A DNA stretch of 64,000 bases from Sycon ciliatum (lineage: Eukaryota; Porifera; Calcarea; Leucosolenida; Sycettidae): NCBI RefSeq assembly GCF_964019385.1, contig NC_088655.1, forward strand, positions 21,748,126 through 21,812,125, given 5' to 3'. Under the pieces are notes generated by a model, which saw only the letters and a program-made list of their open reading frames with translations, was not told the DNA's origin and ran no database searches. The translations under genes were made by a program, and so were the position numbers. This document shows, piece after piece, positions 23,446 to 64,000 of this stretch (position 1 is its first letter; each line of letters starts with the position of its first letter).

Positions 23446-24255
23446 TGTAATAGGTCGCCGAGTGGTATCAGGAGGCACACACACAAGAAGACTGACTAAT
23501 ATTATGTTCTCCGGCTCAATCTGCCTGGAGGGACTCTGAACGGAATATAACTGCTCCGGCTCAATCTGCCAGGAGGGACTCTGAAAGGAATACAACTGCT
23601 CCGGCTCAATCTGCCAGGAGGGACTCTGTTCTGTTCTGCTCTAAACTAAACTGATCTCTGGAAGAGCAGATAGGGCTTATATAGCATAGACAGCATATAC
23701 ATGGCAAGGGAAGAAATAGTAGTGCAAGGAGAAGACGTACAAGGAGATAACGTGAAAGGAATAGGTAGGAGGAAGAATGGACCTAAGTAGCGAGCAACCA
23801 TTAGGTAACAGGAATGCAATCTAACAGTATGAAGGAAACTAATATGAATGGCAGGCTGGCTAATGGGGCGTGAAGGTTACTAAGAGGACAGCGGTTGGAA
23901 AAGCCATTTGACTGTGTGCGAGCTAGGACATGGATTCTGGGAAGACATCTGGCAGAAGAAGAGAAGCGGAAGATATCTTAGAACTAGTAATCAAAAGAGT
24001 TAGTGATGAGGAACGGGCTATAGGAATCAATGTAATGTAGTACAGCATGAATGTGTGCAACATGTATACAGGTCATGCCGTACCGGTCTGCAGGCAGGGT
24101 TGTCTAGTAGTCCTACTTCAAAGTATTAAAGTGGTTGCTGGGAGAAGCACTTAGGAGTAACCGGTGGGACAAGAGGTGCTTTACAGTGTCGCGTGCTAGC
24201 ATGAATACATGTACTACTAGTCATGTGTAGGTCAAGTAGGGCCAGGGATACTACA
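23446..24255 (-). repeat. 3' LTR of the second Gypsy element (810 bp)
   Basis: On the minus strand it begins TGTAGTATCCCTGGCCC and ends CGGCGACCTATTACA. It contains three 45-bp tandem units starting CTCCGGCTCAATCTGCC (plus-strand view, 23509-23640). Its first 76 plus-strand bases match 29247-29322. Confidence 0.85.
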
Positions 24256-24296
24256 CCCTCCCTACCTATTTTTCATCACGTCCTCGTGATGTATAC

Positions 24297-27200
24297 TTAG
24301 TATCGGTTAGGCGGCTGAATATGTAGGCGATTTCGTAGGTTGTACGGATGGGCTTGAGCAATAGGAGGAGGAGGAGCAGCTGGTGGAGGGACAACAGCGG
24401 GATCAATGTGGACATCAGCATCATAGGATACGGGAGACGGAGGCGGTGCTCGTAGTTGAACATATGGTTTTAGTCGATTGACGTGGACCACAATAGCAGT
24501 GCGAGAGGCGGTATCTTGTTTCCGAATACGTACTGTCACTTCATCAATCACACTTGTAATGATGTACGGACCAGTCCAGAACTTGTGGAACTTCGGTGAC
24601 GAATGCGTGGGGACAACAGGGGAGTGGAGAAGCACTAGGTCGGATTTCTGAAACCTGGGTGAAGGGCGAGACGTACCATCATACTGTTTCTTCTGCAGGC
24701 GGTGGGCAGTGATTCCATGTTGACGAGCACGCGTAAAAGCATTCGTGGTAATGGTGTGTCGGGACTGAACATACTCATGATAGGAGGACGGTGGAGTATC
24801 ACGGGGTCGACCATAGACCAAGTCGAGTGGGAGAACAGCTTCATGTCCGAAATGGATGAGGAACGGAGTGTAACCTGTTGATGCATGAACACTGGTGCGA
24901 TAAGCTAACGCTGTATGTTGGAGGTGGAGGTCCCAGTCGCGGTGGTCGGAGATAGATGTGGCAATCATGGCTTCGAGTGTGCGGTTGAATCTTTCCACCA
25001 TGCCATCACTTTGAGGGTGGTATGCAGTGGTTCGAGTTTTGGTAACATCCATCATGCGACACAGATCTTTAAACAGATTGCTCTCGAATTGTGGACCTTG
25101 ATCGGAATGCAGGGCAGCAGGGGCACCGTAGCGACATATCCAACCGTCAAAGAGTAATCGAGCAACGGTGGATGCAAGCATGTTTGGCATAGGAAAAATT
25201 TCCACCCACTTGGAGAAGTAATCCATGATAACTAAGACATACCGGTTGCCACGATCCGTAATTGGAAGCGGACCCATGATGTCTATAGCGATGCGCTGGT
25301 TGGGATAGGATGACGGCTGAGAGTGCATGGGCGCTTTGGGCTTGCGGTGGGGACCTTTCCGTTTTTGACAGTCTGGGCAGGCACGAATCCAGCGCTCAAT
25401 ATCGGATGTCATATGAGGCCAATAGAAACGGTGACGAGCTCTGTCCACAGTGCGACTGATACCTAAATGGTCTGAGCCCACGGCGTTGTGGAGGGCTTCC
25501 ATGACTGTTAAGCGTTGTGAGGCGGGGACGGGTAGTTGGACATTGGACGTGGCTCCATCACTAGACTCATACCTTCTGTAGAGTAGATCATTGATGATGA
25601 GTAGACGATCAAATTGTGACCATAGATGATGTAAGTCAGGACTAGCTGTAGCGAGTTCGGGGGATCCTTTGGCGGGACGGTCCTTTGCAGTTACCCAGGT
25701 AATGACTTTGGCGATGGTGGGATCAGCTCGTTGATCATCACGTAATACAGAGTTGTTGTTGTTAGGCAGCCAGGATGGGGACTGTACTGTAGCCGACATT
25801 GGCGGAGAGACAACTGTGGGTGCTCCTGTTGACAGAGAGACACCGCATGTACGCACAGCAGCAGGCGGCGGGACACACATGCACTTACGAGACGAGGACA
25901 ACACACATGCACATATCCTGGACAAGCCATCAGCATTTGTGTGCTGCGAACCAGGTCGATGCTGGACGTCATAGTCGAAAGCCGAGAGACGTTCAACCCA
26001 ACGGGCGACGATGCCATCAGGGTTCTTGAAGGATGACAACCACAGCAAGGCTTTATGGTCGGTTCGAAGCAGGAACTTGGCACCAAGTAGGTAGTGACCG
26101 AAGAAGTGTGTAAACTCAACCACTGCGAGTAACTCACGTTTAGTAGTAGTGTAGTTACGCTGACCTGACGATAATGTCTTGCTGGCATAGGCAATGGGGT
26201 GTTCTGCACCATCAGGGTCGATTTGCGAAAGGACACTGCCAATGGCATGATCACTAGCGTCTGTATCCAGAATGAAGGGCTTACTGGCATCAGGATAGAC
26301 AAGGACGGGTGCTGAGATGAGGTGTTGGCGGAGTTGATCGAAGGCAGTCTGTGCCGCGGGTGGCCAGGAGAACGTTGAGTGTTTCTTTGTCAGCGCATGC
26401 AGAGGCGTCGCAATTTTAGCGAAGTCTTGGATGAATCTCCTGTAGTAGGATGCAAAACCGAGGAACTGGCGTACCCCGGTGATGGAGGTAGGTTGCTTCC
26501 AGGTAGCGACAGCATTGATTTTGGCGAGATCAGGTCGAACACCATCAGCCGAGAACACATGGCCAAGATAGCCAACAGATGATTTGACTAGAGAGCATTT
26601 AGACGGCTTGACCTTGAGGTGGGCATCACGGAGACGGTTGAGAACCAAGCGTAATCGCTCGAGGTGTTCCTCGAACGTCCTGGAGAAAACTATGATATCA
26701 TCCAAATAGACAAGGCAAATAGACGGGACAAGATCACCGAGAACAGTATTCATCAGGCGCTGGAAAGTAGCAGGCGCATTGCAAAGACCAAAGGGCATGC
26801 ATGTCCACTCGTAAAAGCCAAAGGGCGTTACAAAGGCAGACTTACGCCGTGCAGACTTATCCATACCAACCTGCCAATAACCGGACGCAAGATCAATGGT
26901 TGTGAAGTAACGAGCGCCGGTCATGGCATCAATGGCATCGTCGATCCGCGGCATAGGAAACGCATCTTTCACTGTAACATTGTTTAGCTTACGGTAGTCA
27001 ACACATAGGCGGATGGACTTGTCCGGCTTTCGAACAACTACAATTGGTGCAGACCACGGACTGGTAGACGGACGAATAATGTCATGGTCGCGCAGCTTAT
27101 CAATGTGTTCACGAACCTCTTGTTGCTGGTGGATGGGAAGACGACGCGGGGCTAGTCGGACAGGAGCTGATCCGGCAGTATCGATGGTGTGTGTGTAAAC

Positions 27201-27497
27201 ATCAGTATGGCCAGTGTCGAATGGGCCGTTGGAAACGCAGTCAGCATACTCACTCAGCAGGTTTTTAACGGAACTGCACTCAGTGTTATCCAGGTGGCTG
27301 AGGTCGAACAGTGGAGTTGGCGGAGTTGGTTGATCGTCGGCAAGGGTAGTAGCGGCGCAGGTCTGAGGGGAATCCAGGTCGTCGACAGGCACACATGGCG
27401 TAACGGAGCCAATGCGCAGACCCAGAGGAAGAGTGATCGGCTCGCTGGAGAAGTTGATAACAGGGTAAGCGATAGTAGCAGGAGATGCGTCAGACAC
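24297..27497 (-). CDS. pol: Gypsy pol: reverse transcriptase, RNase H, integrase (intact frame)
   Basis: A 1066-residue open frame starting at the first ATG of the frame; the real translation probably enters by frameshift from the protease frame. RT: RPSTSPWSAPIVVVRKPDKS, LCVDYRKLNNV, IDLASGYWQVGM, MPFGLCNAPATFQRLMNTVL and the intact catalytic LVYLDDIIVFS at about residues 255-265. RNase H: ILDTDASDHAIGSVLSQ and TTTKRELLAVVEFTHFFGHY. Integrase: zinc-binding HHCC region (HLGISRTVDRARHRFYWPHM, CPDCQKRKG), then IAIDIMGPLPITDRGNRYVL, LHSDQGPQFESNLFKDLC and AYHPQSDGMVERFNRTLEAM, giving a full D-D-E triad. A proline-rich tail ends at the stop. No inactivating change is seen in pol. Confidence 0.95.
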   Translation of the reverse strand: MSDASPATIAYPVINFSSEPITLPLGLRIGSVTPCVPVDDLDSPQTCAATTLADDQPTPPTPLFDLSHLDNTECSSVKNLLSEYADCVSNGPFDTGHTDVYTHTIDTAGSAPVRLAPRRLPIHQQQEVREHIDKLRDHDIIRPSTSPWSAPIVVVRKPDKSIRLCVDYRKLNNVTVKDAFPMPRIDDAIDAMTGARYFTTIDLASGYWQVGMDKSARRKSAFVTPFGFYEWTCMPFGLCNAPATFQRLMNTVLGDLVPSICLVYLDDIIVFSRTFEEHLERLRLVLNRLRDAHLKVKPSKCSLVKSSVGYLGHVFSADGVRPDLAKINAVATWKQPTSITGVRQFLGFASYYRRFIQDFAKIATPLHALTKKHSTFSWPPAAQTAFDQLRQHLISAPVLVYPDASKPFILDTDASDHAIGSVLSQIDPDGAEHPIAYASKTLSSGQRNYTTTKRELLAVVEFTHFFGHYLLGAKFLLRTDHKALLWLSSFKNPDGIVARWVERLSAFDYDVQHRPGSQHTNADGLSRICACVLSSSRKCMCVPPPAAVRTCGVSLSTGAPTVVSPPMSATVQSPSWLPNNNNSVLRDDQRADPTIAKVITWVTAKDRPAKGSPELATASPDLHHLWSQFDRLLIINDLLYRRYESSDGATSNVQLPVPASQRLTVMEALHNAVGSDHLGISRTVDRARHRFYWPHMTSDIERWIRACPDCQKRKGPHRKPKAPMHSQPSSYPNQRIAIDIMGPLPITDRGNRYVLVIMDYFSKWVEIFPMPNMLASTVARLLFDGWICRYGAPAALHSDQGPQFESNLFKDLCRMMDVTKTRTTAYHPQSDGMVERFNRTLEAMIATSISDHRDWDLHLQHTALAYRTSVHASTGYTPFLIHFGHEAVLPLDLVYGRPRDTPPSSYHEYVQSRHTITTNAFTRARQHGITAHRLQKKQYDGTSRPSPRFQKSDLVLLHSPVVPTHSSPKFHKFWTGPYIITSVIDEVTVRIRKQDTASRTAIVVHVNRLKPYVQLRAPPPSPVSYDADVHIDPAVVPPPAAPPPPIAQAHPYNLRNRLHIQPPNRY

Positions 27498-27540
27498 GGC
27501 CGGCAGCTGGATGGCAGCATCCTGACATAGTAGATCATAA

Positions 27541-28362
27541 TTATCGTTCAGGCAACTTACCCGATGCCTCTAAGAGAAAGGCCCCTGGACCTGGAGAGAA
27601 TTGGAGCTTGCCAGGCAGGAGTACCTGGCTGAGCGGTGGTATAGCGACGGGCTGGGCGAGTTGGACATGACATACTCGAGTTCCTCCTGCATTTACATCG
27701 TAGGGCTCAGCAGGAGGTGGAGAGATGGAGGGAAACTGGAGAGAATTATCAGCGGGATTGAGGATGCAGCCATGCGTTCGAAGAAAATCAATCCCCAGCA
27801 AAACATCAGGCTGAACATCCCCCACGAGAACATTATGAGACAGGTGACGACCATCAATATCGAATGACAAACATGTAGATCCATGCACACAGACAGATGA
27901 CCCATCAACCGTAACAAGATCCGGTAAAGTGTCTTTTTGCAAAGGTGTATGCGTAGGTATACGTGACCAAGCATTCGTACTGACTAAGGTAACCGCAGAT
28001 CCGGTATCTAGGAGGGCATTAAATGGAATGGACTGAATGGTGATCGGGACTGTGAAGGGACGGCGTGCTGAGGAGCGTGAAAGGAATGTAGTAACTCGGG
28101 ATTTGAGAACATTAAATGGCGGTGTCAGGTACAGGAGATAGATAACCGCAAGAATCAGGACCAACACACATCCCAACATAGCTAGACGGCGGACAACATC
28201 CAAAGCAGGGGAAAGCCCAAGTAGAACGAGAAAGAGTATGAGCAGATAAGCTCCTAAAGGTAAACTAACCGGATGGTGAGTCCATAGCAAAGTATTCACA
28301 GCCGACGGACTCAGGACCGCTGTGAACGCTGGTTTCCCTGCCATTGGCGCGGTTGGCGGCAC
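27541..28362 (-). CDS. Gypsy protease region with hydrophobic N-terminal segment
   Basis: This 273-residue frame overlaps the end of gag by about 50 bp. An N-terminal hydrophobic stretch (GAYLLILFLVLLGLSPALDV and LAMLGCVLVLILAVIYLLYL) looks like one or two membrane segments, unusual for Gypsy pol. It is followed by the retropepsin motif FNALLDTGSAVTLVSTNAW and VLLGIDFLRTHG. The frame ends at 27541 and pol continues in another frame from about 27535, so a single frameshift joins them. Whether that is a programmed shift or a mutation cannot be told from one copy. Confidence 0.85.
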   Translation of the reverse strand: MPPTAPMAGKPAFTAVLSPSAVNTLLWTHHPVSLPLGAYLLILFLVLLGLSPALDVVRRLAMLGCVLVLILAVIYLLYLTPPFNVLKSRVTTFLSRSSARRPFTVPITIQSIPFNALLDTGSAVTLVSTNAWSRIPTHTPLQKDTLPDLVTVDGSSVCVHGSTCLSFDIDGRHLSHNVLVGDVQPDVLLGIDFLRTHGCILNPADNSLQFPSISPPPAEPYDVNAGGTRVCHVQLAQPVAIPPLSQVLLPGKLQFSPGPGAFLLEASGKLPER

Positions 28363-29157
28363 TCAGAGGCAAAGTGGCCCATGCGTCCACAATTGTAACA
28401 GTTGCCTCGTTTCCTCGGAGTACCGTGTTGAGATGTGCGTCGTGGTTGATCCGGTGTGGCGGCGTCCGCTCGTTCCAGGCGGGCCAGTCGGGCGCCGATG
28501 TCCTCGAGCGCTTTGGCGATATGATCCATCTGTTTAGCGTCCGACAGGCCACAGACGGGAAGCGGGGTAGACTCCGGTGCTTCGGCATGCATTATGGCCT
28601 GTTGGTGTAGTGCTCCCTGAAGTGCGGCATCCAAAGTAGCAGGGTGCAGTTCCTTTACCCGGATGCGGGTTGCCCGGGAGTCTAGGCCGTCTAAAAACTG
28701 AATCCGGGCGAGCAGGTCCCTATCGGCCCCAGCCATGTTCGGGTATGCGCGACTGGTGGTCGACCTTACTTCCTCGCAGAAGGCACTCAATGTTTGGCCC
28801 TTTCCTTGGCGGCTGGCTTTCAGCGCTGCGCGGTGCAGCTCCGCGCGCTGTGCAGGGGCAAACCGGTCGGCGAGAGCTTGGGCGAGCGGAGCTATTTGGC
28901 CCGCACGAACCGCCTACGGTAAACTTTGGTAATTATAATTGTGCGTCGCCCGTAAGCGACAGGCCTAGAAACTGGCTCTGCTCCGCCGGTGTCCACTGGT
29001 TGACCGCGGAAACCTGCTGGAACTGGGCATACCAGGCTGCCCAGTTATCTTCCAGGCGACCTGCATACTTCGCCGGTGTGGCCCAATTATGCACGTGGCG
29101 TGCGGGAACGGGTGCTGGAGCGGCGGCGGCGGCAGGTGCAGCGGCGGGTTGAGCCAT
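28311..29157 (-). CDS. gag: Gypsy gag with CCHC zinc knuckle, one frameshift
   Basis: Starts at ATG 29157 (MAQPAAAPAAAAAPAPVPAR) and continues through WATPAKYAGRLEDNWAAWYA, a capsid-like region. At about 28915-28935 an A/T-rich interruption shifts the frame. It resumes with LADRFAPAQRAELHRAALKA, FCEEVRSTTSRAYPNMAGAD and ends with the nucleocapsid knuckle CYNCGRMGHFASEC (C-x2-C-x4-H-x4-C). It would bind and package element RNA. The frameshift is the main visible defect of this element besides the truncated 5' LTR. Confidence 0.85.
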
Positions 29158-29246
29158 AGTCGGAGAAGGATGAATAAGTGGAAGAGTGAACTATCGATGG
29201 GTTCAAATCTAAATAAACTGTTACTTTAAACCACCGCTGCCACCAG

Positions 29247-29322
29247 TGTAATAGGTCGCCGAGTGGTATCAGGAGGCACACACACAAGAAGACTGACTAA
29301 TATTATGTTCTCCGGCTCAATC
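29247..29322 (-). repeat. 5' LTR remnant of the second Gypsy element (76 bp)
   Basis: Identical by eye to 23446-23521; ends abruptly at GGCTCAATC, the start of the first 45-bp LTR subrepeat. Host sequence AGGCGGGTCAGCAG follows. Confidence 0.85.
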
Positions 29323-30700
29323 AGGCGGGTCAGCAGCTCACAAAAAGATGGCGAAGATTCTATCAGGTCGATGCCAAATCCCCGGAGGGTATCATTCTAG
29401 GATTGCATCTCTGTACGTGCGCTGTATAGTACATGTACATGTATACTCTGCACACAGCCCGTTGCCTAAAATATCACCGCTAGCCCCCACAGTCTCACAC
29501 AGCTTTTTATACCACCCTCTCCTGGCATATATACCGGCATGGTCGGCACCCGATCTTCATGGTGCCTGATGATTGCGTGAGCATGAAACTTAAAGTAGCA
29601 GCAAACAAGCCTTGATTGTCCTTGTTGTTCTGTTGTGTACATGTATATAAATATACAAGTGGCACAGTCATGTGCACACAGTGGCAGGGCAGCATGATCG
29701 ACACTTGCTGTTGACGTACAAGCAGAACGCTGCTCAATTCAATACCAGCTCCGCCCTTCCACGACATCTACTTTTGGAGAAAGACACTGCCACAGCATTC
29801 CTTCCTTTTTTCGGTATCTACAGGGTACAAGCATGTGTTTACTGCATGAAACATCACGTTGATCAAGCTAACGCCCCACAGATCCAGCGTCAACTTGTTT
29901 ACCTCAATCACACCCGTTATCCTTGTTCCCTCATCCCTCCCTCCATTTAAGTATCTCTCTGCTGCGCTCAACACTTCTCTTCGCCCCTTATCCATTTTGT
30001 TTACAAGGTATTCAGTATGCGACGTTTGTAACGTTCGTCAATTCTGTTGATTTAAATATGCCAGTTTGTGAACATCAAAACAAGACGTGACTCGATTTTT
30101 TTAGAAAGGGAACTGAAATGATGAAAACAGCATACTGCATCGCACTACTAGTACATTATAACCATCACTATTAAGGGGAAATATTTTGAGACAAAACTGT
30201 ATCGACAAACCCGTTTGCCCCCACCTGCAGCTCACTAGAACTGATGTATTCGAAATATTCACTGATGCAGCACACTATAAAGAAATGGATCGCGAATGTG
30301 CTTAGGAATCAGCAAGGGATGTGTACTTTGCGTCTTGATTTCTACTGAAGCTCTTATGCGGGTACTACTATGCATTATCTTTAGAAAATGCATACATGTA
30401 CATGAATACCAAGTAGGTGAAACAAAAAGTAAAACAGATGGAAGAAAGTGTAACGTACATAATTTATTATATACGAACTGCGAGGTGAAAAACTTGACAG
30501 GAACACACCACTCTGATCACGTTACTTCAGAAAAGATTTTTCATGCGGAATACAATCGATAATAGGACGTCGAAAAAATAGAAAATACCCAATACACACA
30601 TAGCTTATCGTTCCTCAGAAGCATGGTCCAGTTCCTATTACTATTAGTTTTTAGTTCAAAGGTTAGAAATCTTCTAGAACCACCGACGCTGTTTGTATGC
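29323..30700. other. Downstream flank of GTPase gene 1 within the duplication
   Basis: No convincing exon. Aligned with 60345-62104. Contains the hammerhead-like motif at 29561 and one copy of the ~45-bp unit (GTGGCAGGGCAGCATGATCG, about 29681) that is tripled in copy 2. Confidence 0.6.
29561..29602 (+). ncRNA. Hammerhead-ribozyme-like motif (degenerate candidate)
   Basis: CTGATGA (29566-29572), then a short stem TGC/GCA closed by a GTGA tetraloop, then GAAAC (29585-29589). A mini stem III (ACT/AGT, loop TAA) leads to GTA at 29595-29597 as the predicted cleavage triplet. Stem I can form between GGTGC (29561-29565) and GCAGC (29598-29602) with one mismatch. All core residues are present in type I order, but the first stem II pair is T-T where known ribozymes have G-C, so activity is doubtful. 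The same sequence is in duplication copy 2. Confidence 0.35.
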
Positions 30701-31993
30701 TTAAAGGTCAGCTCGCGCCCGCTTCAAAGTTTCCAGTTCCTTCGCACTCTCCGGTTGCTGGCTCCTAGCATTCAGCATTTGCACTTCGGCATGGTGTTGG
30801 GCTTTCATAACCTCGATCTGCTGTTTTTTCTGGGTTAGGAGCTGCTCTTGCTGGGTTCGGAGCTGCTCTTGCTGGGTTCGGTGCTGCTCCAGTTGCTGGA
30901 TCCTAGCATTCAGCATTTGAACTTGGGCATGGTATTGGGCTTTCATAACCTCGATCTGCTGTTTTTTCTGGGTTAAGAGCTGCTCTTGCAACAGTTTAAT
31001 TTGCGATTCTTCACTTTCTGCCCTGCGTTTAGCCTCCTCCATTGCTGCTAACCGGCCCAAATACTCCTTGTTCTGCCTTTCAAACTGATCCGCAGAGATC
31101 ATGTTTTGAGCCGCTTGATCTTTCATTTCTTTCAGTTGCCTGTTAATCTGAGGTTTCTGCGTTTCCATGGTCTGCCTCTGGGTATCCATGGTCTGTTGGA
31201 TGCTGGCCAGCTCCTTCTGCAATGACGCTTGCTCCTTCTTGGTTGGTTCTAGCAACCGTTCAAGTTTCGTTTCCTCGTCAATCTTGTCCTTGACTCTCTC
31301 TTGTATGCGCTGCAGCGTGTCTGGTGAATATCTCTCTTTGCAGTTCATTATGAGATGTCCGAGAACTCGCTTCCGAGATTGGAGTCGGTCGTCCATCGCT
31401 GTTTCGCGGGTTATTTTCCTCGTCGTGGGAGGATTGTCTACCAAGAGAAATTTCTTAACGGACGCCATGACGGGCGATATCTCCTGCAAGTATTTCTTCA
31501 ACCTGATCTCCTCCGCTGGATCTTCATACTCGACGCATTTGGTGCAGATTATACTGGTATATTGGATTACTTCACCTTGAAACATGGCACTCCTCAAGGC
31601 GTCTTCCTCTTCTTTCGTGAAGCGAGATTGGATGACGAACAGCACTTGATTTATTCCTCCGGTGCATTTACTCGCAATATGGGCAAGCTGATTGAGGACT
31701 TCAACAGGCTTTAGCTTTTTGTCACCAATGCCAATGGTATCCACAATCTTCAGTACGTACCGAGTACCTCCGAAATGAACCGCAACCAGCTCGGTCGGCG
31801 TTTCACTCGGCTCGGTCATACCTGCCGAAGACTCATGGAAAAGGTTCTCTTTACCTGCCAGCACGTTCGCCATGGCGGATTTTCCCGCTCCTGTTCGCCC
31901 GATAATAACAACAACACGGTCGGCCTGCTCATCTGGCATAGGGTCCAGCCCGTCTTCATACAGGCTCACATAGGTGCTATCGCAATTGGCCAT
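30701..31993 (-). CDS. AIG1/GIMAP-like GTPase with C-terminal coiled coil, copy 1 (C-terminally truncated)
   Basis: A 430-residue single-exon frame from ATG 31993 (MANCDSTYVSLYEDG). The G1 P-loop GRTGAGKS is at residues 32-39 with MANVLAG after it, as in AIG1/GIMAP proteins. G3 is DTIGIGD at 85-91. GGINQVLFVIQS followed by RFTKEEEDAL matches the conserved AIG1 box. The G4 position reads TKCVEYED, a degenerate TKxD. From about residue 215 the protein is a long charged coiled coil (QRIQERVKDKIDEETKLERL, repeated QLLTQKKQQIEVMKAQ and QQEQLRTQQEQLL). GIMAP-like GTPases bind nucleotide and oligomerise at membranes, and several invertebrates have expanded them in immune contexts; this role is inference here. 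Compared with the copy at 62105-63442, a GAA-to-TAA change ends it about 16 residues early, removing the conserved-looking WYRMLGET tail. Confidence 0.88.
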   Translation of the reverse strand: MANCDSTYVSLYEDGLDPMPDEQADRVVVIIGRTGAGKSAMANVLAGKENLFHESSAGMTEPSETPTELVAVHFGGTRYVLKIVDTIGIGDKKLKPVEVLNQLAHIASKCTGGINQVLFVIQSRFTKEEEDALRSAMFQGEVIQYTSIICTKCVEYEDPAEEIRLKKYLQEISPVMASVKKFLLVDNPPTTRKITRETAMDDRLQSRKRVLGHLIMNCKERYSPDTLQRIQERVKDKIDEETKLERLLEPTKKEQASLQKELASIQQTMDTQRQTMETQKPQINRQLKEMKDQAAQNMISADQFERQNKEYLGRLAAMEEAKRRAESEESQIKLLQEQLLTQKKQQIEVMKAQYHAQVQMLNARIQQLEQHRTQQEQLRTQQEQLLTQKKQQIEVMKAQHHAEVQMLNARSQQPESAKELETLKRARADL

Positions 31994-32404
31994 GGTGTCC
32001 GCAACTTTGTCTGCAGTTGCAGCAAAGGTACTTCGTCCGATTCAAGTAGCGGTTTCACACTGTTGAGCGAAGACTGTTGTGCATTGTTCATATAGCTATC
32101 GCAGCCGCAGGGAGTGCAGCACTGTTACACTATGTGGAGGAGCATGGTCATGGTGTGTGTGTGCCATGTCATGTGCCGTTGCACTGCCTGCACGCGTTCC
32201 AGGATTTGCGGCAGGGAGACTGCTAGCTTGTGCGTGTCTCACTCTCCGCATTTATCCGATTAAACTTGACTGACAAGCACGGATTGGACGTGTCACTCCT
32301 TGGGGACTTGGTCGAGAGAGCTGTCTTTTTGATGGCAAAAATGTGTCGATCCGTGCACATTTTTTCTGCCGGCATAATCCGCCGGTGCCTACATGTACAT
32401 GTAC
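31994..32404. other. Upstream flank of GTPase gene 1
   Basis: Conserved with 63443-63857. No further exon is evident. The segment would hold the promoter and 5' UTR, but no element can be named with confidence. Confidence 0.4.
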
Positions 32405-40256: not shown

Positions 40257-40390
40257 GACGACTACACCATAGCTCAGTGGTTAGAGCATCGCTGGCTACA
40301 AGCGAGGGTCCCTGGTTCGAGTCCTGGTGGTGACAGTCAATTTTTTCTTCAGACTTTTCCCGTTTGTCTCTTTCCCTCAAACCAGTTAAT
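40257..40390 (+). repeat. tRNA-derived SINE, copy 1
   Basis: The tRNA-like head has A box TAGCTCAGTGGTTAGAGC (a perfect D-arm), an anticodon-type stem TCGCT/AGCGA, and B box GGTTCGAGTCC. The acceptor stem pairs only in part (CACCA/TGGTG) and the anticodon loop lacks the usual T33. It is therefore a SINE head and not a functional tRNA gene. A body GTCAATTTTTTCTTCAGAC follows and is shared with the next copy. Confidence 0.75.
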
Positions 40391-40538: not shown

Positions 40539-40700
40539 GACGACTACACCATAGCTCAGTGGTTAGAGCATCGCTGGCTACAAGCGAGGGTCCCTGGTTC
40601 GAGTCCTGGTGGTGACAGTCAATTTTTTCTTCAGACTTTTCCCGTTTGTCTCTTTCCCTCAAACCAGTTATTATTTATTATTATTATTTATTCTTCTTTT
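40539..40700 (+). repeat. tRNA-derived SINE, copy 2
   Basis: Identical to the previous copy from GACGACTACACC through CAAACCAGTTA. It then runs into TTATTATTATTATTTATTC, which also is the inverted (AATAAT)n tail of the minus-strand LINE. The two SINEs are 282 bp apart. Confidence 0.75.
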
Positions 40701-40754
40701 ACTAGGGAATTCCCAACAGGCGTCAGCGCCTTTTTACAGGGAACCCTACTCAAT

Positions 40755-40798
40755 CTGCGGACAGAACTGTTTCGTCCTTTGTGGACTCATCAGCGCAG
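40755..40798 (-). ncRNA. Type I hammerhead ribozyme, unit 1
   Basis: Read on the minus strand: stem I 3' strand CTGCG, core CTGATGA, stem II GTCC/GGAC with loop ACAAA, core GAAA, mini stem III ACAG/CTGT with a two-base loop TT, cleavage triplet GTC, then stem I 5' strand CGCAG. Every invariant core residue is present and all three stems pair perfectly. The very short stem III is typical of retrozyme and Penelope-type hammerheads, which may cleave best as dimers; the tandem layout fits that. Confidence 0.93.
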
Positions 40799-40980
40799 CA
40801 CAGAGGAAATGAGGCCGAACCTGATAGCAATGGAAATAAAAATTTCCAATCAGGCCCGAACGTACCTTGCCAGAGTGCTCAAACTGACAAGTCAGTGAGC
40901 TCTGCATAAAGCAAACAGCAAAGGCACTGCCCCACGCAAGAGTGCTCAACTGCTACAAGAGCAGGAGCGAAATACTCAAT

Positions 40981-41024
40981 CTGCGGACAGAACTGTTTCG
41001 TCCTTTGTGGACTCATCAGCGCAG
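40981..41024 (-). ncRNA. Type I hammerhead ribozyme, unit 2
   Basis: Identical to the unit-1 ribozyme, exactly 226 bp further on. Confidence 0.93.
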
Positions 41025-41206
41025 CACAGAGGAAATGAGGCCGAACCTGATAGCAATGGAAATAAAAATTTCCAATCAGGCCCGAACGTACCTTGCCAGA
41101 GTGCTCAAACTGACAAGTCAGTGAGCTCTGCATAAAGCAAACAGCAAAGGCACTGCCCCACGCAAGAGTGCTCAACTGCTACAAGAGCAGGAGCGAAATA
41201 CTCAAT

Positions 41207-41250
41207 CTGCGGACAGAACTGTTTCGTCCTTTGTGGACTCATCAGCGCAG
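41207..41250 (-). ncRNA. Type I hammerhead ribozyme, unit 3
   Basis: Identical to the unit-1 ribozyme, 452 bp further on. Confidence 0.93.
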
Positions 41251-41432
41251 CACAGAGGAAATGAGGCCGAACCTGATAGCAATGGAAATAAAAATTTCCA
41301 ATCAGGCCCGAACGTACCTTGCCAGAGTGCTCAAACTGACAAGTCAGTGAGCTCTGCATAAAGCAAACAGCAAAGGCACTGCCCCACGCAAGAGTGCTCA
41401 ACTGCTACAAGAGCAGGAGCGAAATACTCAAT

Positions 41433-41476
41433 CTGCGGACAGAACTGTTTCGTCCTTTGTGGACTCATCAGCGCAG
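41433..41476 (-). ncRNA. Type I hammerhead ribozyme, unit 4
   Basis: Identical to the unit-1 ribozyme, 678 bp further on, in the unit whose end is shortened. Confidence 0.93.
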
Positions 41477-41959
41477 CACAGAGGAAATGAGGCCGAACCT
41501 GATAGCAATGGAAATAAAAATTTCCAATCAGGCCCGAACGTACCTTGCCAGAGTGCTCAAACTGACAAGTCAGTGAGCTCTGCATAAAGCAAACAGCAAA
41601 GGCACTGCCCCACGCAAGAGTGCTCAACTGCTACAAGGAACCCTAGGTATAATTTGATGGATGAGCGAAATTCAGCGAAATTCAGCTGGTGAACTAGACA
41701 TGCCGCAAGCCGGTGGAAGTGTATTCCACCTGGCAGCGCCCAAATAAGAAATTGCACTAAAGCCATATCGGGTGTTAGCAGGGGGGGGGGGGGCAGAACA
41801 AGAGCAGCAGAGACTTGGCCACGGGTGGTGGCTGCAGTGCGAGCACCATGGGCGCGCAAAGTAAAGCGGTCTCGCAGAAGAGGACTAGCAAGTCCATTCA
41901 GGCAGCGGTAAACAAATACATAGGTTTTGAAGTTGAGGCGTTTCTCAAGGGCGTACAAG

Positions 41960-42302
41960 TGTAGTATCCCTGCCCGACCAATACGGAAGCAGTACGGAAC
42001 TAATACGGAGCTTTGCCTGACGTATATTTAGTGTATCTCCGTATGTAAGCGTGCGGCGTCTGCTGCATATAAGCGGCTGCGCATTTCTGTTTTGAGGAAG
42101 AGAAGATTAGAATAGATTGGATAGCAATGAAAGCTAACTCGAAGAATAAGGATTCAGCCTCTAGGTGAGCACCGGAGAGAAAGTCAGTTATTTTGCCGCA
42201 TCTTCTTTCACGAACGATTATATCTCAGGTGTGTACCTGAAAGTAGAATAAAAGTAATTATTGTTGATTTCACCGCGCCTACCACTCGGCTAACCTATTA
42301 CA
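41960..42302 (+). repeat. 5' LTR of the ubiquitin-carrying element
   Basis: TGTAGTATCCCTGCCCGACC ... ACCACTCGGCTAACCTATTA then CA. Contains TGCATATAAGCGGC, a possible TATA region, at about 42063-42076. Confidence 0.92.
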
Positions 42303-42357
42303 TTGGTGGCAGCGGTGTAGTTTTAAATAAAACAACGTGATTCGACCCCAGACTCCG

Positions 42358-42399
42358 ATGGCTCAACCCGCTACAGCTCCGTGCGACGAATCAAGATGA
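42358..42399 (+). pseudogene. gag start remnant (13 codons)
   Basis: MAQPATAPCDESR then TGA. The start MAQPA-AP and its coding bases ATGGCTCAACCCGC are the same as at the gag start of the Gypsy element (29157 leftwards, MAQPAAAP). The stop overlaps the ATG of the next frame as ATGA, so termination-reinitiation is conceivable. Confidence 0.7.
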
Positions 42400-42800
42400 G
42401 AATCATGTTTCTTGCCTTCCTCGGCCTGGCAATGCTTATTAGCCTGCAGCACAGTCAGGGTGCTGACGTTATAACGTGGATCACCATTCTTTCCGCATGG
42501 CATCCACAGGAGACTCCGATGGCGATTCCAAGTGACCCGCTACCTACATTTATACTACCGCGTACCGGTAGTGATGGCGAAGCTGATGAGGACGACAACA
42601 GGCAGGCTTCTGCCCAAGATGAGGAGGGTATTCCCCAAGACCAGCAGCGTTTGATTTTCGCCGGCACGCAGTCGAAAGCAGGAGCCCACTCTTCACTTTG
42701 GTACTTCGCCTCTGTGGTGGGATGCAGATTTTCGTCAACACTCTTCCTGGCTAGACCATCACTCTTTACGTCGCGCAAAGCGATGTTCTCGACAATGTGA
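42396..42800 (+). CDS. Signal-peptide-like ORF fused to a ubiquitin segment
   Basis: 134 residues from ATG 42396. The N-terminus (MRIMFLAFLGLAMLISLQHS, then QGADV) looks like a cleavable signal peptide. An acidic linker follows (GSDGEADEDDNRQASA). Then comes QDEEGIPQDQQRLIFAGTQ, aligning with ubiquitin residues 31-49 at all but three or four positions, with the Lys48 position changed to Thr. After that the frame slips: in the next frame TLH-LVLRLCGG (ubiquitin tail) runs directly into MQIFV of a second unit at 42722. The source is therefore a polyubiquitin transcript. Whether the chimera is translated is unknown; the origin of the N-terminal part is not recognised. Confidence 0.7.
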   Translation: MRIMFLAFLGLAMLISLQHSQGADVITWITILSAWHPQETPMAIPSDPLPTFILPRTGSDGEADEDDNRQASAQDEEGIPQDQQRLIFAGTQSKAGAHSSLWYFASVVGCRFSSTLFLARPSLFTSRKAMFSTM

Positions 42801-42937
42801 AGACCATGATTCAAGACGAGGAGGGAGGTTATTTGTCTGACGCCGAGCTAGCCGCTCTGAGTGACCGGCTCAACCAAGATGAAGATAAAACCTGGCTCGC
42901 CCTCCGCCATAGCTCCAGGCGCCGCCGTGGTTACTAA
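42722..42937 (+). pseudogene. Second ubiquitin unit, in-frame stop and divergent tail
   Basis: 72 codons from ATG to TAA in one frame: MQIFVNTLPG, a TAG, then TITLYVAQSDVLDNVKTM and IQDEEG. This aligns with ubiquitin residues 1-35 at about 23 positions. Lys6 reads Asn, Lys11 is the stop codon, Lys27 is kept and Lys29 reads Met. After EEG the ubiquitin match ends and unrelated coding-like sequence follows (GYLSDAELAALSDRLNQDED, then RHSSRRRRGY). It is directly preceded by LRLCGG of the first unit, the normal polyubiquitin junction. Confidence 0.75.
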
Positions 42938-43422
42938 CGCTGATTCCAGGTATGGCATTTTCTTTCCTGTCTTCCTTCAGTCTCCCTGTTCTTTTCAGTC
43001 TTCCTTTATGCGAGTGTGTGAATCCAGTTTAGCTTGGTAGGCGTCTGATCATGGTGAGCCACGGCTTACCCAGCTAACGTGGGACAATGTGTGTGACAAC
43101 GCCCCCTATAGTTATAGTGTATTCAGTTAGGTTTTTTGAACTGCGATGTTCCTGGCGGGTTGTGCCAGCGTTGTGCAGCAAGAGTGCTGTGGATTTTCAG
43201 GTCCTATTTGGAGGACAGTTCTTTCCCCTTTTGACCCCGTGAGATCGTGTGAACCTGGTGTGCTTCTACTTTATGATTTGTTATCAGTTCATTTATTCTG
43301 TCTACTCTAAACGTTATCATTTCCGATATATTATTTGCCATCTTCCGGTTGACGCTGTGTTCGTAACTCTTCACTAATTTTTTGAAAATCACGAGGGCGT
43401 GATTATCTGTAGGAAGGGAGGG

Positions 43423-43764
43423 TGTAGTATCCCTGCCCGACCAATACGGAAGCAGTACGGAACTAATACGGAGCTTTGCCTGACGTATATTTAGTGTATC
43501 TCCGTATGTAAGCGTGCGGCGTCTGCTGCATATAAGCGGCTGCGCATTTCTGTTTTGAGGAAGAGAAGATTAGAATAGATTGGATAGCAATGAAAGCTAA
43601 CTCGAAGAATAAGGATTCAGCCTCTAGGTGAGCACCGGAGAGAAAGTCAGTTATTTTGCCGCATCTTCTTTCACGAACGATTATATCTCAGGTGTGTACC
43701 TGAAAGTAGAATAAAAGTAATTATTGTTGATTTCACCGCGCCTACCACTCGGCTACCTATTACA
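43423..43764 (+). repeat. 3' LTR of the ubiquitin-carrying element
   Basis: Same as 41960-42302 except GGCTACC for GGCTAACC near the end. TSD CAAG follows. Confidence 0.92.
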
Positions 43765-45451
43765 CAAGTTAGTATGACTGTATAGAAGAGTGGTGGGAGT
43801 CATTCTATCCAACGAAAATATTCTCTTTAATGCTACGCGGCTGGCAGTAAGAAGCTTGTCATATAGGGTTTGTGATAAGCAATGAATATATGCAGTGCTG
43901 CCAAACTCAAATGTGGACTGAATGATCGATAAATAGAAAAGTCGTTTGCCAAAAATGCTGATATTCTGCTTTGCATGGACAAATGCTCCGACCTTCCTAT
44001 TGACAGTTGCACATACTGCATCCACTTGGGTTGAGAAAGACAGATGTTCGTCAACCAGTATTCCTAAGTACCGAGCGTAAGCAGATGGTGCTATGGAAGT
44101 GCCCCGGCAGTTGACTGCGGTGCCAGGTGGCAGCTCCTTGCCCGGTCGCCTGAGCAGGACAAACTGAGTCTTGGACGGGTTTAACACCAGTCCCTTCTGA
44201 TCTAGGTAGCGATCCAGAGCGGCAAGGTCAGCACTCAGCTGGGTTGTGATGATCTGGATGGACTTGTGCCTGATATAGAGTGTGATATCATCGGCATAAA
44301 GTTGATTCAATGCATGTTGGAAGCACTGTGGTGCATCACGGGTGTAAATGCAAAATAGCAGTGGGCCGAGCACGGAGCTTTGTGGGACGCCTCTTGTGCA
44401 AGGGCGGGCCCCACCTAGCTCTTGTCCTACTCTTACTCGCTGGACGCGTCTGGTCAGGTAGCTTGCAAACCAAGCAAGTGCAGTGTCAGCAATGCCAAGC
44501 ATCTTCAACTCGTCAATGAGCTCTTGATGCTTTTTAACTCGGTCAAAAGCTTTGCTCATATCTGCAAACACTATGCCGCAGTACTCGTTATTATCAAGGG
44601 CTTGGAGCCATTCGTCGACCACTAGCGCTAGGCAGTCCTCACACGAGCTGTTGGTACGGTAGGCAAATTGATTGTCAGGCACGTACATGATGTTGTGAAA
44701 CTTAAAGAATGCAATCAGCTGCTCCAAGACAACTCGTTCTAATATCTTGCTGCATATGGGCCAAAAATGAGACTGGTCTGTAATTAGTAGAGCTTTCTGC
44801 ATCGCCTGATTTGAAAACTGGGCTGACTGTGGCATTCTTGAAAATATCTGGTACGCACCCTGTGCTCAGAGATTTGTTGATAATATCAGTGAGAGAAACT
44901 GCTATGGAATCACGACCATGCTTCAGTACGGCTGGTAAGACGTTGTCAGAGCCAGGTGACTTACTTGTGTTTGTTGCTTTGAGCAGTGTGGTGATGTGCG
45001 CCACAGTTACGGGTCGAAAATGGGACAGTCGAGCAGCAGTAGTTGGCTGTTGGTTGGCTGGGCGTAAACATATGTCAGCAGGCCGGCTTGGATCATGCAC
45101 TATGTTAGCAAATGTCTCTGTCAGACTACTGAGAGATGCAATTGGCTGATTTCTTACTTTCCGCCTGCCAGACAGACTGTAAAGAAGAGCCCACTGACCT
45201 CTAGGATTTTGTCGGAGTGCCGAGAACTGGTGCATCAGGAAACGGGATTTCAGTCTCCTACTCAGAAGCGTCCCCTCGCGTCTGACAGAACGATACTGTT
45301 GCTTAAGAACCATATTCCCAGGCTGCGAAAGGACTCTTCGATGCAGAGTAGTTCTGCGCTCCAGCAGTTTCCGTAACTCTGGTGTTGCCCACGGTTGAGG
45401 CTTAGGGGGTGCACACTCTTGTTTATCTACTCTTGGTGAGACTTTGCTATA

Positions 45452-45720: not shown

Positions 45721-47028
45721 TGATATGTGGCTTGATTATTGTAGTTGACGTTGATTTAGTGACTTTGGCAAGTTTGAGTCGTGTCAAGAAGTCAGGTAGG
45801 ATTCAGTACTAGGCAGTAGTGAAACGTGAGTGGCAGTCTTTGCCGGTTTCTGAGGGCATCCTGGATTTGGTGTGCAGCGCTGTGGAAATGGCTTGCTGTG
45901 GAGGTCCCAGCACTGGATGTTGTATCAAAGGTACGACCTCGTAGCACGTGCTAAACCTAAAAAAATTCAAAAATTGACTTGGGCCTGTGGGAGTCCGTGA
46001 GAGAACGCCCACTCGTTCCGTTGTGACAGATTCCAGGGCCACGTAGAGGGGCCCTACCTCACCACCCATGGCTGCTTCTGGACTTGTTTTAGGTTTGGGT
46101 CCCGCGCACGGACAGAATGGGCACGAAAATGTGAAAAAATGTAAATGCATTTGTTTGGCTCCTGGGTGGCTCGCACACCGTGGCACTATGCCGGAAATTT
46201 GAGTTTTTCCGGCCTGGAAAGCCTGTCAGTGAGGCGCAAGAACTTGTAAATCATGTCCTGAGGGCCAGCATAGTGGCAGGAGTGTGTGGTCAAAATTTCA
46301 CTCAAATCCACTGAGAAACACCAAAGTTACGGTCAATTGAATGCCATATGAAATTTTTGGGTGATGTGCCCCCTAAGTGGGCAGCCTACCCATAAATTTC
46401 ATATGGCATTCAATTGACCGTAACTTTGGTGTTTCTCAATGGATTTGAGTGAAATTTGGACCACACACTCCTGCCACTATGCTGGCCCTCAGGACATGAT
46501 TTACAAGTTCTTGCGCCTCACTGACAGGCTTTCCAGGCCGGAAAAACTCAAATTTCCGGCATTGTACCACGGTGTGCGAGCCACCCAGGAGCCAAACAAA
46601 TGCATTTACATTTTTTCACATTTTCGTGCTCATTCTGTTCGTGCGCGGGACTCAAACCTAGAACAAGTCCAGAAGCAGCCATGGGTGATGGGGTAGGGCC
46701 CCTCAACGAGGCCCTGGAATCTGTCACAACGGAACGAGTGGGCGTTCTCTCACACACTCCCACAGACCCAAGTCAATTTTTGAATTTTTTTAAGTTTAGC
46801 ACGTGCTACGAGGTCGTACCTTTGATACAACATCCAGTGCTGGGACCTCCACAGCAAGCCATTTCCACAGCGCTGCACACCAAATCCAGGATACCCTCAG
46901 AAACCGGCAAAGACTACCACTCACGTTTCACTACTGCCTAGTACTGAATCCTACCTGACTTCTTGACACGACTCAAACTTGCCAAAGTCACTAAATCAAC
47001 GTCAACTACAATAATCAAGCCACATATC
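45721..47028. repeat. Giant inverted repeat, ~635-bp arms
   Basis: The left arm from GATATGTGGCTTGATTATTG (45721) to CATATGAAATTT (46354) is mirrored by 46393-47028. The centre (46355-46392) reads TTGGGTGATGTGCCCCCTAA and GTGGGCAGCCTACCC. The arms differ at a modest number of positions by eye. No ORF with a known domain; open frames in the arms are mirror images. Sequence to 47380 continues without a partner and ends GGTAGTCTGCCACC. Confidence 0.9.
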
Positions 47029-60475: not shown

Positions 60476-60827
60476 CAGTTGTGGCAAGTGAAATGTGACA
60501 CTTGCCATAGGGGACAGAGCCACAAATGGACACCAATGATGTAATACACTGCACCTAATTTGTACATAGAGCCGTATGCATCCCAAACAGATCGAAAGGT
60601 CACAGCGTAGATACACACAGTTCACAAATATGGTACACATAAGGAGTATTGGTATCCAATCCCCATTCATTTTTGCAAGCAGGTTTTGAACCTTGACTGT
60701 GATGAGTACGAGTTTTGTCATCAGACATTATAAGGTTGTATGTAACACATGTACTGTACGTATGCAGGGCTGCAGACTGCATGGTGCAGTCCCTTATGTC
60801 AAGTGTTGGATTTCACTTGCCACACTG
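60476..60827. mobile_element. MITE with TA TSD, proven by empty site in copy 1
   Basis: Ends CAGTTGTGGCAAGTGAAATG and CATTTCACTTGCCACACTG-like inverse (right end reads TTTCACTTGCCACACTG). TA flanks 60474-60475 and 60828-60829. Copy 1 reads straight through at about 29440-29450 (AGTACATGTACATGTATAC). Confidence 0.88.
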
Positions 60828-60952
60828 TACATGTATACTCTGCACACAGCCCCCTGCCTAAAATATCACCGCTAGCCCCCACAGTCTCACACAGCTTTTT
60901 ATACCACCCTCTCCTGGCATATATACCGGCATGGTCGGCACCCGATCTTCAT

Positions 60953-60994
60953 GGTGCCTGATGATTGCGTGAGCATGAAACTTAAAGTAGCAGC
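60953..60994 (+). ncRNA. Hammerhead-ribozyme-like motif, second copy
   Basis: Identical to 29561-29602: CTGATGA, weak stem II with GTGA loop, GAAAC, mini stem III and GTA. The duplication is recent enough that identity is not independent evidence of constraint. Confidence 0.35.
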
Positions 60995-61063
60995 AAACAA
61001 GCCTTGATTGTCCTTGTTGTTCTGTTGTGTACATGTATATAAATATTCCAATGGCACAGTCAT

Positions 61064-61196
61064 GTGTACACAGTGGCAGGGCAGCATGATCGATACTGGC
61101 TGTTGACTGTGTACAGTGGCAGGGCAGCATGATCGATACTGGCTGTTGACTGTGTACACAGTGGCAGGGCAGCATGATCGATACTTGCTGTTGACG
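61064..61196. repeat. ~45-bp tandem repeat, 3 copies (1 in duplication copy 1)
   Basis: The unit with GTGGCAGGGCAGCATGATCG and TGTTGACTGTGTACA is present three times here and once at about 29670-29715. Confidence 0.85.
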
Positions 61197-62104
61197 TACA
61201 AGCAGAACCCTGCTCAATTCAATACTAGCTCCGCCCTTCCACGAAATCTACTTTTGGAGAAAGACACTGCCACAGCATTCCTTCCTTTTTTCAGTATCTA
61301 CAGGGTACAAGCATGTGTTTACTGCATGAAACATCACGTTGATCAAGCTAACGCCTCACAGATCCAGCGTCAACTTGCTTTCCTCAATCACGCCCTTTAT
61401 CCTTAGTCCCTCCATTTAAGTATCTCTCTGCTGCGCTCAACACTTCTCTTCGCCCCGTATCCATTTTGTTTACAAGATATTCAGAATGCGCCGTTTGTAA
61501 CGTTCGTCAATTCTGTTGATTTAAATATGCCAGTTTGTGAACATCAAAACAAGACGTGACTCGATTCTTTTAGAAAGGGAACTGAAATGATGAAAACAGC
61601 ATACTGCATCGCAATACTAGTAAATTATAACCATCACTATTCAGGGGAAATATTCTGAAACAAAACTGTATCGACAAACCCGTTTGCCCCCACCTGGAGC
61701 TCATTAGAACTCATGTAGCTCGAAATATTCAGTGATGCAGCACACTATAAAGAAATGGATCGCGAATGTGCTTAGGAATCAGCAAGGGATGTGTACTTTG
61801 CGTCTTGATTTCTACTGAAGCTCTTATGCGGGTACTACTATGCATAATCTGAAATGCATACATGTACATGAATACCAAGTAGGTGAAACGAAAAGTAAAA
61901 CAGATGGAAGAAAGTGTAACGTACATTACTTATTTTATATAAACTGCGAGGTGAAAAACTTGACAGGAACACACCAATCTGATAACATTACTTCAGAAAA
62001 GATTTTTCATGCGGAATACAATTGATAATAGGACGTCGAAAAAAAATGAAAATACCCAATACACGCATAGCTTATCGTTCCTCAGAAACATGGTCCAGTT
62101 CCTA

Positions 62105-63442: not shown

Positions 63443-64000
63443 GGTGTCCGCAACTTTGTCTGCAGTTGCAGCAAAGGTACTTCGTCCGATTCAAGTAGCG
63501 GCTTCACACTGTTGAGCGAAGACTGCTGTGCATTGTTCATATAGCTATCGCAGCCGTAGGGAGTGCAGCACTGTTACACTATGTGGAGGAGCTTGGTCAT
63601 GGTGTGTGTGCCATGTCATGTGCCGTTGCACTGCCTGCACGCGTTCCAGGATTTGCGGCAGGGAGACTGCTAGCTTGTGCGTGTCTCACTCTCCGCATTT
63701 ATCCGATTAAACTTGACTGACAAGCACGGATTGGACGTGTCACTCCTTGGCGACTTGGTGGAGAGAGCTGTCTATTTGATGGGAGTTTTACCAGCAAAAA
63801 TGTGTTGATCCGTGCACATTTTTCTGCCGGCATAATCCGCCGGTGCCTACATGTACGTATCTAATATTGACTGGGTACGAGGTCAGTATAGGCAATAAAA
63901 GCCGAGTAAAAGACCGAGGCGAAGCCGAGGTTTTTTACGAGGTTTTTATTTCCTATACTGACCAAGTACGAAGTCAATATTAGATTTATCACGACAAACA

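Follow-up and report, generated by a model that had tools for sequence, protein, structure and literature searches.

A young LTR retrotransposon in the sponge Sycon ciliatum carries a spliced host mRNA patched with one repeat of polyubiquitin

The stretch of DNA analysed here (the window; 64,000 nucleotides of contig NC_088655.1 in the RefSeq assembly GCF_964019385.1 of the calcareous sponge Sycon ciliatum, forward-strand positions 21,748,126 to 21,812,125) contains at 41960-43764 an element that we confirm to be a young, non-autonomous long terminal repeat (LTR) retrotransposon of 1,805 bp, the interior of which joins pieces of two host messages, one for a secreted acidic protein and one for polyubiquitin. 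Lying on the forward strand, it is flanked by two copies of the target-site duplication (TSD) CAAG (41956-41959 and 43765-43768) and bounded by a 343-bp 5′ LTR of the form TG...CA (41960-42302; start TGTAGTATC, end ATTACA) and a 3′ LTR (43423-43764), which are identical in 343 of 344 aligned columns and differ by a single 1-nt gap, one of the 344 columns being a G just outside each LTR. The 5′ LTR is followed by a primer binding site (PBS; TTGGTGGCAGCGGTG, 42303-42317), the primer tRNA of which is presumably Leu, and the stretch preceding the 3′ LTR (43388-43422) includes a polypurine tract (PPT; AGGAAGGGAGGG, 43411-43422); no gag-pol open reading frame (ORF) was found in the interior of this copy. 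Direct LTRs with a TSD, a PBS with a PPT, and many copies without gag-pol are the features of a non-autonomous LTR retrotransposon, and the first-pass annotation of the locus was right both in the features that it listed (LTRs with one indel, the TSD, PBS and PPT, and no gag-pol) and in calling the element young and non-autonomous. From 5′ to 3′ the order is LTR, PBS, a probable gag start, a spliced acidic-protein mRNA, PPT and LTR, and the acidic-protein coding sequence is itself interrupted by one polyubiquitin repeat, with an 11-nt stretch at either edge to which both donors align.

The host source of the larger part of this cargo emerged from protein searches with the leader of the element: whereas the first returned 23 proteins among 24 candidates, all of them relatives of the element, a profile of 12 leaders gave 24 matches among 31 candidates, including P0035, a partial Sycon ciliatum protein of 102 residues annotated as TFIID subunit 7-like. 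This protein is acidic (33 Asp and Glu in 102 residues), had no Pfam family in the scan and possesses a signal-peptide-like leader, as in the element, that runs directly into the tail motif LSDAEL. Its residues 37-102 correspond with 100% identity to an exon at C109:1371-1568, and exons 1 and 2 lie upstream on C109, separated by GT-AG introns of about 2.5 and 0.6 kb. The element carries exons 1-3 without these two introns; given that both are missing, a spliced mRNA was captured (that is, RNA was the source), and the interior has the kind of content known from the maize element Bs1, namely host coding sequence without host introns. After a probable gag-start remnant (ATGGCTCAACCCGC, 42358-42371, placed by position), the interior reads as captured 5′ untranslated region (UTR; 42369-42395, with the host match starting at 42369 and the last bases before the ATG also matching the host 5′ UTR), coding sequence of exons 1, 2 and the first part of exon 3 (42396-42625) and, beyond the ubiquitin patch, the second part of exon 3 (42815-42892, beginning LSDAEL), the frame of which runs on to a TAA at 42935-42937. 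The host mRNA aligns on both sides of the patch (42369-42625, 71.6%, E 4e-37; 42815-42892, 82%, E 5e-17), and in the host gene exon 3 is uninterrupted across the insertion point. What follows (42893-43387), in which the tail frame ends and about 450 nt have no matched source, presumably represents later exon(s) and the 3′ UTR of the same host mRNA. The last part of this segment (42938-43387, about 450 nt) has accumulated 0.42-0.49 changes per site, compared with 1.02-1.13 in the leader. We found no link between the acidic protein and known spicule proteins, the three published Asx-rich proteins of Sycon having 143, 158 and 418 residues (PMC5390275, PMC12419799).

The patch itself comprises residues 31-76 of one ubiquitin repeat (42615-42721, with a 32-nt deletion found in the window's subfamily), after which the next repeat supplies residues 1 to about 34 (42722-42825, 80.8% identical to one donor unit); its end falls within residues 31-35, of which 32-34 fit both donors. 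At the left junction (42615-42625, CAAGATGAGGA) and at the right junction (42815-42825, GACGAGGAGGG) 11 nt are aligned by both the acidic-protein and the ubiquitin donor. That the interior captured polyubiquitin sequence, and hence is a chimera of at least two host transcripts, had been proposed at first pass, and both donor genes have now been located. A chance resemblance was considered and does not explain the match: the first translated piece matches polyubiquitin in the PDB at E 3e-64 (a nine-repeat chain; 3e-4 per repeat), and polyubiquitin DNA of the same genome, on C1, matches the window over 42615-42825 at E 6e-46. The second translated piece is weaker: the best chain gives E about 6 for each repeat, and a single ubiquitin at best E 0.0085. 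Pfam gave 16.8 bits for the first piece of the window copy, below the cut-off of 25.4 bits, and reported no family for the second, whereas three of five scanned relatives scored above the cut-off for ubiquitin (48.8, 56.2 and 57.2 bits) and P0026, which has the first ubiquitin half, fell just below it (24.8 bits).

Full matches in the ubiquitin search of the genome were to two polyubiquitin genes, one with five repeats and the other with six, and to a locus with a single repeat; the element's patch descends from the gene at C1:3161275-3162414. Within this gene the best neighbouring pair is unit 2 followed by unit 3, which differs from the majority codons of the element copies at 10 synonymous and 15 non-synonymous positions of 81 (majority codons taken from 21 in-frame loci for residues 31-76 and from 59 loci for residues 1-35). 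The other three neighbouring pairs show 13, 17 and 17 synonymous differences, and the units of the second polyubiquitin gene (on C4) and the single-ubiquitin locus show 32-42. Asp24 and Thr28 of the sponge's own ubiquitin are also present in the element, which places the donor within this lineage. The earlier description of the interior as ubiquitin-coding holds for the origin of the sequence and fails for the reading frame: no complete 76-residue repeat lies in one frame in the element, the two ubiquitin parts of the window copy are in different frames (owing to the 32-nt deletion and an extra base), and ubiquitin codon 11 is a TAG (42752-42754 in the window). Over 59 loci this codon is TAG in 54, TAT in 4 and TGG in 1. 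Likewise, the ORF at 42396-42797 does bear the leader, and part of it lies outside the frame that the relatives use.

To place the window copy within its family we searched the assembly (538 Mb in 313 contigs). A DNA search with the element scored 40 of 1,299 candidates and reported 132 pieces. A further search, with the host protein as query, scored 150 of 1,385 candidates: one is the host gene, and the remaining 149, at 59-69% identity, we take for element copies, LTRs having been checked in some of them. Loci were fetched from the DNA search (39) and from the ubiquitin search (20, with 150 of 1,102 candidates scored), the first set being biased towards the window's subfamily and the second towards ubiquitin likeness. 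An exact 4-bp TSD was found in 40 of 59 cases (58 loci and the window, with one tandem locus excluded) by a script that tries several possible ends per locus, so that a few may be chance; the same duplications appear beside the aligned LTRs in a separate LTR-alignment analysis. Of these 40 loci, one gave no LTR alignment, and in the remaining 39 pairs the locally aligned part reaches 100% identity in 12 and 99% or more in 24 (alignment ends were trimmed, and L026, counted among the 12, shows a 1-nt gap in the separate LTR-alignment analysis). Because its LTR pairs are near-identical, the family is recently active. Other fetched copies also keep the interior, an outcome in favour of the first-pass annotation: the right ubiquitin junction is present in 59 of 59 fetched loci and the left in 56, so that the same chimera recurs in 56 of 59. 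The 32-nt deletion region is short in 39 of 41 first-sample interiors, full length in one and unmeasurable in one. Tandem arrangements occur at C226:469938-474569, where four leader matches are spaced 1,465 bp apart, and at C13:9016300-9020600 (L013, the locus excluded above), a tandem copy with two interiors.

The ends of the element point to its ancestry. A Ty3/Gypsy relative on the reverse strand of the window (24236-29268, partial extent), with a CCHC gag knuckle, reverse transcriptase, RNase H and integrase, shares 44 of 51 positions with the element across the LTR 3′ end and PBS (E 1e-8) and 43 of 51 across the PPT region and LTR 5′ start (E 2e-9). Its gag start matches in 19 of 23 positions around the probable remnant, a match that is not significant alone (E 0.61), and beyond LTR ends, PBS, PPT and gag start there is little similarity between the two. 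We suggest on this basis that the element was probably derived from a Gypsy element of this kind, which is also a candidate for the kind of autonomous helper involved: as the ends are alike, mobilisation in trans can be envisioned, and the genome has related Gypsy pol copies with uninterrupted frames. A Gypsy pol at C10:13045965 lies beside LTRs of the element and was rejected as helper given its wrong orientation, being probably nested; at this locus (C10:13042810-13049449) the LTR matches of an element copy stand about 6 kb apart with the opposite-direction Gypsy pol between them, a probable nested insertion.

Taking these observations together, we consider it very probable that the element is a non-autonomous Gypsy derivative in which host mRNA has replaced nearly all of gag-pol, and that its cargo is a passenger chimera with a one-repeat ubiquitin patch. 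The joins suggest that reverse transcriptase made them by switching between co-packaged RNAs. A first switch would have led from the gag start to the acidic-protein mRNA, where the junction of gag start and host 5′ UTR also shows a few shared bases. The host gene and ubiquitin repeats 2 and 3 all have versions of CAAGAC(A/G)AGGA / GAGGAGGG, and a second switch at CAAGAC(A/G)AGGA may have carried synthesis into repeat 2; as the motif recurs one repeat on, in repeat 3, a third switch at GAGGAGGG would have returned it to the acidic-protein mRNA, with the gag-pol of related Gypsy elements supplying the enzymes in trans. Two template switches are the best reading of the patch edges. The 149 other matches to P0035 all stop at or before residue 80, whereas a copy free of ubiquitin should continue from the leader into the tail, and the patch is by this token as old as the sampled family. 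Switching between element copies was probably still ongoing after the founding event, given that L045 (941-1120) and L047 are without the leader, with the gag start of L045 joining ubiquitin directly and in frame (which we read as a later deletion), and that L034, with a piece of gag start at its left ubiquitin junction, looks like a recombinant of leader-bearing and leader-less forms.

An alternative in which the leader-ubiquitin-tail chimera was first a host gene, formed by exon shuffling or unequal recombination, and was captured whole as mRNA only later is improbable in our view. A single host chimera could have been missed, as only the best candidates were scored in the ubiquitin and host-protein searches (150 of 1,102 and 150 of 1,385), but the sole acidic-protein locus outside the element among those scored has an uninterrupted exon 3, and both ubiquitin junctions fall inside this exon, at short shared sequence rather than at exon borders. 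That the family is a fast-evolving satellite or an assembly artefact that merely resembles an LTR element is hardly credible: some copies are indeed in tandem, as with the four leader matches on C226, yet differing 4-bp duplications at many separate sites refute this, and the PBS, PPT and LTR pairs also speak against it. A third possibility concerns the cargo rather than its origin, namely that the ORF is functional: its secreted product, containing residues 31-76 of ubiquitin and in some copies 1-35 as well (hence ubiquitin in circularly permuted form), would assist the element or have been recruited by the host. In support of this, 31 of the 35 interiors that have a leader start keep its frame open through ubiquitin residues 31-43; a single open frame spans leader, ubiquitin and tail in L018 from the first sample and, among the 20 of the second, in L075 and L079; and in L080, also of the second sample, the frame is open through an altered middle. 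Open frames are, however, expected of young copies anyway, and codon 11, a TAG in 54 of 59 loci, argues against this reading. Furthermore, the copies with the frame-breaking deletion include some with 100% identical LTR pairs (for example, L022), so that movement does not require ubiquitin to be intact.

Selection tests on the fetched copies, by codon position and by random placement (from which L012 was dropped for the variant tests, as its flanks in common with L009 mark the two as one insertion), bear on the same question, and no purifying selection was clearly detected by them. Leader changes on the tree fall evenly on codon positions 1, 2 and 3 (64, 67 and 71), as do shared leader variants (10, 11 and 9 in the first sample; 11, 9 and 8 in the second); tree counts for ubiquitin residues 1-35 are 21, 13 and 26. 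In the tail, the private variants number 3, 15 and 9 (P = 0.018); constraint on a protein would not give such a surplus at position 2. Synonymous counts agree with random placement in seven of eight tests. The lysines might seem to tell otherwise, having been lost at five of six positions compared with changes at 9 of 68 others (Fisher P = 0.0007; 5 of 7, P = 0.002, if the left K33 is included), a set that leaves out the right-hand K33E, with which the acidic-protein sequence also aligns, and two changes that the ubiquitin of the sponge itself shows. Once the observed spectrum of mutations, with its many A to C changes, is allowed for, the excess falls to P = 0.04, and we have set selected lysine loss aside. 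The first-pass annotation had taken the loss of Lys6, Lys11 and Lys48 as an argument against normal chain formation; it says little on this point, because the product is cut by the TAG and, in the subfamily, by the frame-breaking deletion. From the TAG, the deletion and the selection tests we judge a functional ubiquitin-like gene unlikely, and functional cargo of any of the above kinds is more doubtful still than an origin as a host gene. The cargo is best read as a passenger and the chimera as something other than a working ubiquitin, and it does not appear to help mobility.

Some of our results weigh against the capture of host mRNA by a Gypsy derivative as set out above, or against the passenger status of its cargo. 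Segment 42880-43400 is without match on C109:1-6500, so that the 3′ part of about 450 nt is sourceless there, and the host protein is only 54-61% identical to the leaders of the relatives, so that the actual donor may have been a more closely related paralogue. The left junction is not spanned in L031, L045 and L047. An autonomous element with near-identical LTRs was not found among the 40 of 1,396 LTR candidates and 43 of 6,385 pol candidates that were scored and matched up by their listed coordinates alone. Recombination at the DNA level in the host, rather than template switching, may have made the joins. As to constraint, private variants at ubiquitin residues 31-47 show a synonymous excess (P = 0.014), one result of eight and not notable among eight; on the founding branch 14 of 74 codons are non-synonymous compared with 18.1 expected (P = 0.025), which hints weakly at constraint early on, or else at silent change within the host gene; and residues 35-76 in the second sample have 0.056 shared and 0.032 private variants per site compared with 0.13 and 0.194 in the leader, which would favour functional cargo, although this may reflect the picking of copies by ubiquitin likeness. 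Weak constraint on the cargo may therefore exist.

If template switching did shape the patch, messages that are themselves tandem repeats, such as polyubiquitin, may well serve as ready cassettes: synthesis enters at a motif and leaves at its next recurrence, and one permuted repeat is inserted. We regard this as likely, though less firmly so than the capture itself. That a permuted ubiquitin is made and active is, taken separately, unlikely, and the combined proposition, that repeats act as cassettes and that the secreted, lysine-poor, circularly permuted ubiquitin of some copies is made and effective, is very unlikely. In practical terms, several ORFs of the family have a Pfam ubiquitin match and could be mistaken in annotation for ubiquitin-like genes.

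Other features of the window include a 226-bp tandem array (40747-41637) that adjoins two tRNA-like genes (40263-40335 and 40545-40617) with anticodon CTA and equal Rfam scores, probably part of a tRNA-derived repeat. Downstream of the element, a near-perfect palindrome (45722-47028) has two 653-nt arms that are 96% complementary and 1 nt apart, and is either a fold-back element or an assembly artefact. A duplicated block (29434-32335 and 60826-63782), about 31.4 kb apart and 93-98% identical by segment, contains similar ORFs at 30701-31993 and 62105-63442, the first of which, the only one of the two scanned with Pfam, matches AIG1/GIMAP GTPases.

Gene capture by LTR elements is, to our knowledge, mostly inferred from old and blurred fragments, whereas here, with both donors in one assembly, a young element, the loss of introns and overlaps at the edges, the switch points are visible; the locus provides a natural record, in a sponge, of how a domain is inserted into the coding sequence of another protein via RNA. 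Acute oncogene-transducing retroviruses have the order LTR, PBS, gag start, host cDNA, PPT and LTR and depend on a helper. The sponge element is similar to them in layout and in its inferred helper dependence, but its family is endogenous and of high copy number, shows no sign of cargo function and retains a very short gag remnant. Closer in kind is Bs1 of maize, an LTR element with segments of three host genes, described as transductions (PMC13317346). In both, fragments of several host genes are joined within one LTR element; what differs is the host and the cargo, here an acidic protein split by a ubiquitin repeat. For the sponge element the donor loci and the shared edge sequence are identified and at least 149 copies were scored. 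Cytopathogenic pestiviruses likewise have ubiquitin mRNA patched by recombination into a foreign RNA, and the insertion is a working cleavage signal in which part of the monomer can be missing (PMC8310069). The sponge ubiquitin, by contrast, is split, permuted, stopped by TAG in 54 of 59 loci and without clear selection, and resides in an LTR retrotransposon. Terminal-repeat retrotransposons in miniature (TRIMs), known in animals such as bivalves (PMC6934838) and an ant (PMC3532108), also lack gag-pol and occur in tandem copies. With a length of 1,805 bp and LTRs of 343 bp, compared with less than 1,000 bp and 100-250 bp for the TRIMs of bivalves (PMC6934838), the sponge element is excluded from this class by size, and its interior is captured coding sequence. 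The phage collection gave no match to the element, and no ubiquitin capture by an LTR element was found in the literature by title or abstract start, subscription papers lying outside the search. As far as these searches go, Bs1-like capture is known as a kind, and what is new in the sponge element is what it carries, its patch of a single repeat and how sharply the record is preserved.

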